64,000 bases of DNA from contig JAIQFA010000005.1 in NCBI GenBank assembly GCA_020073525.1, positions 58,169 through 122,168 of the forward strand, given 5' to 3'. Below, one piece after another: positions 15,019 through 28,552 of this stretch. Source of the stretch: Terriglobia bacterium (GTDB lineage Bacteria > Acidobacteriota > Terriglobia > Terriglobales > Acidobacteriaceae). Numbering within the stretch: the first letter of the stretch is position 1; every line of letters starts with the position of its first letter. The notes below the pieces were generated by a model, which was not told where the DNA came from, ran no database searches, and saw nothing but the letters and a program-made list of their open reading frames with translations. The position numbers and the translations under genes are program-made.

Positions 15019-15110
15019 GAAGTCAGAAGTAAGAAGTCAAATTGAAGAAGTAACCTTTGGCAGGTGCGTGGATAGGTTCTTACTTCTTCAATTTGCCTTC
15101 TGACTTCTGC
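15019..15110. repeat. inverted repeat (family E) without cargo
   Basis: gaagtcagaagtaagaagtcaaattgaagaagtaacct (15019-15055) and inverted copy aggttcttacttcttcaatttgccttctgacttctgc (15074-15110). Confidence 0.88.
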
Positions 15111-25646: not shown

Positions 25647-25707
25647 GTAGAGACGCGGCTTGCCGCGTCTCCTGCCGCGCGTGAGACGGGGCAAGCCCCG
25701 TCTCTAC
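25647..25707. repeat. twin-palindrome repeat (family C)
   Basis: gtagagacgcggcttgccgcgtctc ... gagacggggcaagccccgtctctac. Confidence 0.9.
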
Positions 25708-25730
25708 TCCAGGTTTTTGTCGATCTTCCG

Positions 25731-25765
25731 TTTTTCTCCGTGTCTCCGTGCCTCCGTGGTGAATA
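25731..25765. repeat. B-family repeat, inverted
   Basis: tttttctccgtgtctccgtgcctccgtggtgaa. Confidence 0.7.
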
Positions 25766-25776
25766 ATGTTGTCGTA

Positions 25777-26406
25777 ATGAAAAATCTCGGCATTCTCCTT
25801 TCCGGACGCGGCTCCAACTTTGTGGCCATCGCCGACAGCATCGCTGCGGGCAGGATTCCTGATGCCCGCATTGCGGTTGTAATCTCGAATCGCGCTGATG
25901 CTCTCGGCCTCGAAACCGCCCGGCATCGAGGTCTCACGGCGCTTGCCATTCCATCAAAAGGCAAGACGCGAGAGGAGCACGACCGCGAAGTTGTGACTGC
26001 GCTCCACGAACACAAAGTCGACCTCGTCTGCCTCGCGGGTTACATGCGCCTGCTCTCGCCCTGGTTCGTGCAGCAGTTTCCGGCAAGAATTCTCAACATC
26101 CATCCGTCCTTGCTGCCGGCGTTTCCGGGCCTGGAAGCGCAGCAGCAGGCCTTTGCCTATGGGGTGAGAGTGTCTGGCTGTACGGTGCACCTGGTCGACG
26201 AGGAACTCGATCATGGCGCCATCATCGTGCAGAAGACCGTGCCAGTTCTGGACACCGACGACGAGCACACGCTGGCGGACCGAATTCTTGAGCAGGAACA
26301 CATCGCGTATGCGGAAGCGATCAAGATTGTGCTCGAGGGGAAATTTGAAATTGTTGGCAGGCGGATGGTGAAAAGTCAGAAGTCAGAAGTCGAATTGAAG
26401 AAGTAA
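25777..26406 (+). CDS. purN: phosphoribosylglycinamide formyltransferase
   Basis: MKNLGILLSGRGSNFVAIADSI, RILNIHPSLLPAFPGLEAQQQAFAYGVRVSGCTVHLVDEELDHGAIIVQ. Confidence 0.94.
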   Translation: MKNLGILLSGRGSNFVAIADSIAAGRIPDARIAVVISNRADALGLETARHRGLTALAIPSKGKTREEHDREVVTALHEHKVDLVCLAGYMRLLSPWFVQQFPARILNIHPSLLPAFPGLEAQQQAFAYGVRVSGCTVHLVDEELDHGAIIVQKTVPVLDTDDEHTLADRILEQEHIAYAEAIKIVLEGKFEIVGRRMVKSQKSEVELKK

Positions 26407-26860
26407 AAACCGACCAATTTGAATGTGAGACGAATCACTGCTGACAGAGCTCTGCAGGCGTTACATCTGAAGGGTGAAAGAGTTTGAGGGGCTGCAGGAG
26501 CGGACAAGAAACTTTGCACTACGCATCATCAAACTGTTTCGCTCGCTGCCCAAGACTGACGACGCTCGGATATTAGGGAAGCAACTTCTTCGCTCGGGCA
26601 CTTCGATTGGAGCCAACTACCGCGCCGCTTGCCGGGCGCGTTCTCGTGCGGAATTCGCCGCGAAGCTCGGTATCGTGCTCGAAGAAGCCGACGAAGCAGC
26701 TTTCTGGTTGGAGCTGATGCGGGATGCTGGAATCTTCCCTGAGGCGAAGTTGCGAGAGATAGTTCAGGAGGCCAAAGAACTCGTGGCTATCTTTGTAGCG
26801 TCCGTCCGAAAGGTAAAAGGTTTTACTTCTTCAATCTGACTTCTGACTTTTGACTTCTTT
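26371..26860. repeat. inverted repeat arms (family E) bracketing the four-helix-bundle gene
   Basis: left aaaagtcagaagtcagaagtcgaattgaagaagtaaaaacc (26371-26412); right 26819-26860 reverse complements to aaagaagtcaaaagtcagaagtcagattgaagaagtaaaacc. Confidence 0.9.
26474..26839 (+). CDS. four helix bundle protein (23S rRNA intervening-sequence protein family)
   Basis: 121 aa; LRSGTSIGANYRAACRARSRAEFAAKLGIVLEEADEAAFWLELM. Confidence 0.9.
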   Translation: MKEFEGLQERTRNFALRIIKLFRSLPKTDDARILGKQLLRSGTSIGANYRAACRARSRAEFAAKLGIVLEEADEAAFWLELMRDAGIFPEAKLREIVQEAKELVAIFVASVRKVKGFTSSI

Positions 26861-27414
26861 TACATGATGAGATCGTTGCTCATCCGCGCGATCGGGTGCT
26901 GCATCACTTCAAGTTCGGTTTTCACCAGGTTCAATCCGTAGACGCACTGCTCAAACCTTTGCGAGAGCTGCGCGAACAGCGGCGCCACCTTGGCGTATTC
27001 GAAGTGCTCGAATTTCGAAACAATGTAGTAGCTTTCTTTCCCGGCTTTCACCCAATCTACGAAATTCTCGACGCGCTGGCGGCGCAGGCGATAGTGGTTG
27101 ATGCTCTCTGGAAACATCCCGGCGTAGAACAACGTGTAGTCGCCAATGTGCTTGCGAACCTGGCGCTCGCGATCGAACGAGGGTGCGGGACCGTAAATCG
27201 GGTCCGACTCGATCAGCATTTCGCCCACATCGTTCAACGGCTTCCCCGACGCATTGCGGATTTTCAGCAACTGCTCCGCGTCGCAAAACTCCGACAGCAG
27301 GTGTGCGACGTACCCCACAACTTGCGGATCGCGAATTCCAATTTCCTCGGCATAATGACGGCCGACCAGCTCAACAAACAATTGCTGCAGCGGATGCATC
27401 TCCGGAATCTCCAT
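26860..27414 (-). CDS. conserved hypothetical protein
   Basis: 184 aa ORF with coherent composition; no family recognised. Confidence 0.65.
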   Translation of the reverse strand: MEIPEMHPLQQLFVELVGRHYAEEIGIRDPQVVGYVAHLLSEFCDAEQLLKIRNASGKPLNDVGEMLIESDPIYGPAPSFDRERQVRKHIGDYTLFYAGMFPESINHYRLRRQRVENFVDWVKAGKESYYIVSKFEHFEYAKVAPLFAQLSQRFEQCVYGLNLVKTELEVMQHPIARMSNDLIM

Positions 27415-28132: not shown

Positions 28133-28552
28133 CTAGCGGCGGCCCTTTTTCTTGGCAGCCTTCTTCTTGGTTGCTTTCTTGGCTGGCTTCTTAGCCGCTT
28201 TCTTTTTCGCCGGTTTCGCTTTTTTCTTAGCCGCTTTCTTGGCCGGCTTCTTGGCAGCTTTTTTCTTGGCGGGTGCCTTCTTCGCTGGCGCTTTCTTGGC
28301 CGGCGCCTTCTTCTTCGGAGGCTTGCTCGGGCTGCCACCGCCGCCCGACGGAGTTACCGGTGCGGGCGGGGTCACTGGTTGCCGTACCGCAGGCACGGAG
28401 ATCTCGTCGTCTTCCTCTACGAGAACAGGTTCTTCCTCTTCTTCTTCCTCTTCTTCCAAATCCTCTTCCAGCGATTCGCCATAGGCGCCGCTGTCGCTGA
28501 ATTCATCCGTCTCATCATCCCGACCGTACAGAGTCGGATCATTGAAGCGCAT
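28133..28552 (-). CDS. bipolar charged protein: acidic N-terminus plus histone H1-like PAKKA tail
   Basis: ESLEEDLEEEEEEEEEPVLVEEDDE followed by KKKAPAKKAPAKKAPAKKKAAKKPAKKAAKKKAKPAKKKAAKKPAKK. Confidence 0.8.
   Translation of the reverse strand: MRFNDPTLYGRDDETDEFSDSGAYGESLEEDLEEEEEEEEEPVLVEEDDEISVPAVRQPVTPPAPVTPSGGGGSPSKPPKKKAPAKKAPAKKAPAKKKAAKKPAKKAAKKKAKPAKKKAAKKPAKKATKKKAAKKKGRR

Follow-up and report, generated by a model that had tools for sequence, protein, structure and literature searches.

Genes of the 23S rRNA intervening-sequence protein (IVP) family are known mainly from insertions in rRNA genes. Such intervening sequences (IVSs) are present in the 23S rRNA of Leptospira, Coxiella and Brucella, and mobility has been proposed for them earlier. 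The Coxiella IVS is 428 nt long with a stem of 28 bp, and the open reading frame (ORF) of the IVS is without known function (PMC4990558). We analysed a stretch of 64,000 nt from a Terriglobia bacterium (GenBank assembly GCA_020073525.1, contig JAIQFA010000005.1, positions 58,169 to 122,168; the whole stretch is referred to here as the window), in which positions 26371-26860 form a small element, i.e. a 23S-IVP gene encoding a four-helix bundle (PF05635, TIGR02436) within inverted heptad arms. The element has in common with the 23S IVSs the protein family, the inverted stem-forming ends and a similar size, and it shows two of their defining features, an IVP ORF lying between complementary ends, but not their location in a 23S helix. 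It also differs from them in lying outside rRNA, in having arms of tandem 7/8-mers and in having dispersed copies that lack the gene.

Other described systems resemble the element in part. REPIN/RAYT systems (TnpA_REP) also comprise small dispersed intergenic hairpins, together with a gene that has these repeats on both sides and occupies sites conserved over a long time; however, the IVP does not belong to the Y1 HuH transposases, the RAYTs of the same genomes have other repeats, and the GTAG/CGTC-type tag at the foot of the palindrome was absent from the window arms, which were the arms read directly for it. Avd of the diversity-generating retroelements (4DWL, 8UB7) shares the fold, being an oligomeric four-helix bundle with a nucleic-acid partner in those retroelements, and PF05635 and Avd are regarded as homologous (PMC10053308); no reverse transcriptase and no template or variable repeat (TR/VR) was evident among the ORFs of the stretch examined, ~24.0-29.5 kb. 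Intergenic tandem heptamers that are widespread and of unexplained origin have also been described, e.g. TAACTGA in Beggiatoaceae (PMC4679880) and further heptameric repeats (PMC4692102), but in the available text of these reports they are direct repeats and an IVP gene is not linked to them. A search of open-licence papers turned up no report that connects IVP genes with heptad repeats.

The arm pair of the window element (26373-26408 and 26821-26856) consists of 36 nt on each side, with 92% complementarity and a spacing of 412 nt. The inverted-repeat score of this pair was 55; 4000 random position pairs of equal spacing in same-genus DNA had a 99.9th percentile of 35, and the highest of them reached 57. 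Direct reading showed that both arms have a short run of AGTCAGA heptads followed by ATTGAAGAAGTAAAACC, i.e. the arms are made up of tandem AGTCAGA heptads and then ATTGAAGAAGTAAAA and are not an arbitrary repeat. The full left arm (26371..26412, + strand) reads as the heptads AAAAGTC AGAAGTC AGAAGTC followed by GAATTGAAGAAGTAAAAACC, while the right arm (26817..26860, - strand) is the reverse complement of the left-arm heptads plus TTGAAGAAGTAAAACC. The left arm is followed by a leader (26413..26473, +), which is the start of a sequence limited to gene-bearing loci at the purN site described below, and by the IVP gene itself (26474..26839, +), which has a GTG start and encodes 121 aa. The arms as transcribed in an earlier, sequence-only reading of this DNA agree with the re-read sequence, and its claims that inverted arms flank an IVP-family gene and that the element lies outside rRNA, between purN and a convergent gene, were confirmed. 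Its description of a 121-aa gene inside the arms was right as to the family and the four-helix fold, but the C-terminus of the IVP (GFTSSI) and its stop codon are read from the right arm itself, and the gene is therefore not wholly between the arms.

The window IVP matched PF05635 (23S_rRNA_IVP) with an E value of 3.9e-18 and 66.1 bits (cut-off 33.8) and TIGR02436 with an E value of 4.3e-27 and 94.5 bits (cut-off 24). Its AlphaFold2 model has four helices (mean pLDDT 93.7), and in a Foldseek search with this model the closest solved structures were 2rld (S23 family; E 8e-7) and 2gsc (Xcc0516), with Avd (4dwl, 8ub7) as a more distant structural match. The entries 2rld and 2gsc have five chains each, and Xcc0516 has been described as a pentamer of four-helix bundles (PMC4990558). 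Arms of four to five repeats, taken together with a five-fold ring, suggest that each subunit may correspond to one repeat.

All eight IVP genes in the window's genome lie within inverted tandem arms of 7 or 8 nt, with eight different repeats (GGTCTCA, GTTCTCA, TCAGCTN, AGTCGYT, AGTCAGA, AGGTTTCA, ATCGGGYC and ATTGAATC). Among 21 genomes (the window's own and others of the same genus and the same order), 65 of the 72 testable IVP genes had arms scoring above the random 99th percentile, with a median score of 42.5 compared to 18 for random positions; these 72 genes are partly non-independent, as many have common flanking genes and 18 sites were found again in 2-11 genomes. A cross-phylum scan, which took an alignment of 10 sequences as the query and covered 84,980 species genomes, returned at least 581 relatives, the best 80 of which were used. 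Here 72 of 79 testable loci, covering 17 phylum labels and including a few from genus genomes already counted, exceeded the 99th percentile of a control made of shifted positions in the same loci (n=431), and 55 of the 79 exceeded its maximum. A further set, mostly of the other IVP subtype, gave 26 of 30 loci above the control 99th percentile, a couple of these 30 overlapping the earlier set; it was based on 22 genomes outside the window's genus, drawn from those reached by the cross-phylum scan, and PF05635 was found in all 22 (at most 17 matches in any one genome). The main controls were random and shifted positions, because arms of the same type match each other, which weakens a within-genus control with mismatched flanks. 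The best internal period of the 184 arms with strong scores (median length 39 nt) was 7 in 83 of them, 8 in 41 and 14 in 55, so that 179 had a period of 7, 8 or 14 versus the ~46 expected from shuffled arms. The enrichment of arms around IVP genes, which the sequence-only reading had set as a test beforehand, was thus found in all three sets, and the packaging rule, i.e. that an IVP gene lies inside arms of 7/8-nt repeats, is well supported.

Such arms could in principle have an RNA-level function, forming an immobile transcribed stem (a bidirectional terminator, a stabiliser or an RNase III site) that regulates the neighbouring genes or the IVP transcript. The RNA of the element does fold better than its shuffles (z -4.6), and the purN-site element lies between convergent genes, as such a function would suggest. 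However, mismatches in the 184 arm pairs showed no excess of G-U over A-C (338 versus 306 on the sense strand, p=0.22), and the gaps that hold hairpins, as judged from crude ORF calls, were convergent in 3 cases, codirectional in 12 and divergent in 7, i.e. there was no enrichment of convergent gaps. An RNA-level function would also leave the 7/8-nt periodicity and the dispersal of the repeats unexplained. The lack of both a G-U excess and a convergent enrichment favours a process at the DNA level over selection for a sense-RNA stem, although neither result is decisive, and we consider an RNA-level function improbable.

The IVP tree showed that one clade keeps its repeat where the neighbouring genes are unrelated: arms of AGRGGTC-AGATTGCAGA are present at three sites, namely 3' of purN, in the purM-purN gap of one genome (G029) and at a third site. 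Similarly, IVPs of the same clade have GTCGTT arms at two non-orthologous sites and GTTTCAAG arms at two. At the site between dprA and topA, 20 of 22 genomes have the IVP gene and the two gene-less genomes are without clear arms; clear arms are kept in 19 of the 20 gene-bearing genomes, those of the remaining one (G028) being degenerate. The repeat at this site has drifted (AGCTNTC, AGTTNTC, GCTNTTA, GCTACTA and GCTTCGA) with the left and right arms still matched, as the arm score was 41.2 with the arm's own partner and 25.3 with partners from other genomes (0 of 20000 permutations). The IVP genes at the dprA-topA site have a median dN/dS of 0.08 (25 pairs), which shows purifying selection on the IVP at this one site.

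Across 809 kb of the window's genome there are scattered gene-less hairpins with short loops, built from the resident repeat types. One hairpin of the AGTCAGA family lies in the window at 15024..15109 (C45:73192-73277, no strand assigned), with 30-nt arms CAGAAGTAAGAAGTCAAATTGAAGAAGTAA that are 93% complementary and a 26-nt loop. The long-loop heptad arm pairs in the 809 kb cover all eight IVP genes, one pair spanning two adjacent elements. Two long-loop arm pairs (on C20 and C72) enclose non-IVP content; at G000:C72:46058-46877 opposed ATCGGG octad arms surround an ORF with a CxxCH motif (CAACH, cytochrome c-like). In G003 there were 18 repeat pairs in the +/- arrangement within 150 nt and none in the -/+ arrangement. 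For the window's genome, de novo searches gave a heptad inverted-repeat density of 35.8 per Mb (a sample that takes in the IVP contigs); the density was 12.5 per Mb in G023, and 258 kb of G030 had none. When 23 genus genomes were searched with four repeat patterns, most of them had the repeats, and the read-backwards controls gave almost no matches; G030, which is 95% complete and IVP-free, had zero matches to all four patterns. A density comparison with G016, which has no IVP, gave GC-rich chance matches only. Several other recurring hairpin families are not heptad-based (e.g. TTGTCATCCTGAGCGAAGCGAAGGACCTGCT, GTAGAGACGSGGCTTGCCSCGTCTC and GTGTGGTGGCGGGGCTTCGCCCCG; G000 C126, C151, C71, C52 and others), and none of these families was linked to a gene here.

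The repeats were commoner in genomes with the matching IVP lineage for GTTTCAAG (p=0.006) and AGATTGNAGA (p=0.037), the value for ATCGGG being p=0.22, and the tests combined gave a permutation p=0.002. A local, derived arm variant, TTGAAGAAGT, is present in dispersed copies of G003, whose purN-site IVP arms have the same variant: it was found in 6 of 63 G003 copies versus 0 of 81 in four listed genomes without an IVP of that variant (p=0.006), a comparison picked post hoc after inspection of the list. G010, which has a gene-less hairpin at purN, also shows the variant in the right arm of that hairpin.

We propose, with middling confidence, that these elements form a family with a life cycle like that of REPIN/RAYT and that the IVP protein serves them as the cognate factor, acting on hairpin DNA. 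The unit would be a small genetic element with inverted tandem 7-nt arms and a single IVP gene in the loop, and it would belong to a pan-bacterial class in which every IVP lineage is paired with a 7- or 8-nt repeat of its own. Copies that bear the gene would be long-lived masters with mostly vertical inheritance, gene-less hairpins with the same arms would be dispersed copies or deletion derivatives, and the IVP protein would replace the Y1 transposase. As an oligomer, which in the solved relatives comprises five bundles, the IVP may bind the repeat array of an arm that is extruded or single-stranded, with each subunit taking one repeat. The bound hairpin might then be handed to host replication or repair enzymes, or to a polymerase in trans, and copies of it would enter new intergenic sites. 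The arms would stay matched through copying of one arm from the other on the DNA hairpin. The 23S rRNA IVSs would be members that landed in rRNA helices. The proposal in its entirety, i.e. mobile hairpins with 7/8-nt arms that are propagated by an IVP pentamer at one repeat per subunit, with 23S IVSs as members caught in rRNA and many intergenic heptamer repeats as gene-less copies, is offered tentatively. The results suggest that the hairpin-arm IVP elements are an unrecognised class of mobile element, the mobility and biochemistry of which we infer.

The purN site was compared across relatives. The upstream neighbour of the element, purN (25660..26406, +; TIGR00639), was called as an ORF from a TTG far upstream, and its true start is probably later; its 3' end runs into the left arm, which encodes the last ~12 purN residues and the purN stop codon. 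The right border of the element is formed by the convergent gene (26860..27414, -), which encodes 184 aa and had no match in Pfam or NCBIfam, and the whole gap between the two genes is taken up by the element. Five genomes, including the window's, have an IVP gene in the loop at this site, in ten relatives a short gene-less loop closes the arms, and the remaining relatives have other arms or none. One relative (L061, G002) has an octad hairpin, GTTTCAAG, nested in AGAAGTC-type arms 3' of purN. A comparison of purN 3' regions had been suggested as a way to find empty sites; it yielded the ten gene-less hairpins but did not resolve an exact empty site. A conserved locus that has the gene but lacks arms in most relatives, which had been named as the refuting case, is contradicted both here, where the gene always has arms among the genomes compared, and at dprA-topA.

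The main rival explanation is that the IVP gene is a passenger that inserts into loops: hairpins with 7/8-nt arms would form a separate population of repeats that owe their movement to another enzyme or their origin to repair, IVP genes would insert into their loops, and the arms would belong to the site and not to the gene, as in the case of 23S IVSs in rRNA helices. The scatter of the ten gene-less and five gene-bearing purN sites on the host tree is consistent with this, as are the nested hairpin of L061, the persistence of repeat families without the matching IVP lineage and an IVP protein that has no catalytic motif. However, the coupling of IVP lineage to repeat type at non-orthologous sites, and the lack of the repeats in the sole IVP-free relative, argue against loop insertion. 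The purN-site IVPs also have a common leader sequence (leaders similar to the window's are present in L048, L049, L053 and L059) and fall mostly into one group in the IVP tree, which suggests one old insertion followed by repeated gene loss as a simpler reading than five insertions. We regard insertion of passengers into loops as possible but rather unlikely.

Several results nevertheless count against propagation by the IVP protein. The protein shows no known catalytic motif, the data included no instance of movement, and target-site duplications were not resolved. The distribution of the gene at the purN site requires at least five changes on a purM-purN-neighbour tree, which also fits insertion into existing hairpins. 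The tests of repeat presence and abundance ignore phylogeny and rest on 23 genomes, the zero-IVP case being one genome. Several near-complete genomes in which no ATCGGG-type IVP was detected have many ATCGGG hairpins, so the association is not a strict one and a cognate gene is unnecessary for a repeat to persist; the presence of an IVP lineage predicts its repeat only in part, with ATCGGG as the failing case. Finally, no 23S-located IVP was present in the sample and the 23S motif was absent from every fetched locus, and the elements are thus linked to the rRNA IVSs by family only.

Mobilisation by RAYT/Y1 transposases would make the heptad hairpins ordinary repetitive extragenic palindromes (REPs) and the IVP a bystander. 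Y1_Tnp genes are indeed present in 21 of 23 genus genomes, but the Y1 genes of the genus (L285-L314) have GC-rich inverted repeats of their own (GGGTGGCCCGTCC..., CAGTCCCGAAGGGACG...). The element does not encode a Y1 HuH transposase, PF05635 being the sole family matched. We consider this explanation very improbable. RAYT flanks were rejected as the source of the heptads, as none of the 25 Y1 loci examined had heptads, and the Y1/RAYT-like genes with GC-rich flanks are a separate REP-type system.

The sequence-only reading had drawn a parallel between this element and a cassette with unrelated arms and cargo elsewhere in the window. As far as can be told this is the GxxExxY gene at 2067-2546 (TIGR04256, E 7.8e-46), which lies within inverted arms of a 9-nt repeat, and the parallel, touched on briefly here, is real. 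Two more GxxExxY genes (L260 4031-4396 and L179 244-540) have inverted 9-mer-like flanks, which raises the possibility that GxxExxY genes in 9-mer arms may be a system parallel to the IVP elements. Separately, the window contains at 28133-28552 (-) an ORF of 139 aa with an acidic middle and a long Lys/Ala-rich C-terminus of the KKAPAKK type, a composition like that of histone H1.

The function of IVP/S23 proteins has been an open question ever since the description of rRNA intervening sequences; the abundant intergenic heptamer repeats, too, have been of unexplained origin. The link between IVP genes and heptad repeats makes both questions testable, as the repeat beside each gene predicts its binding site, and a limited scan has already provided hundreds of natural gene-repeat pairs. 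If the proposal is true, it would account for some of the small hairpins that environmental genomes contain.
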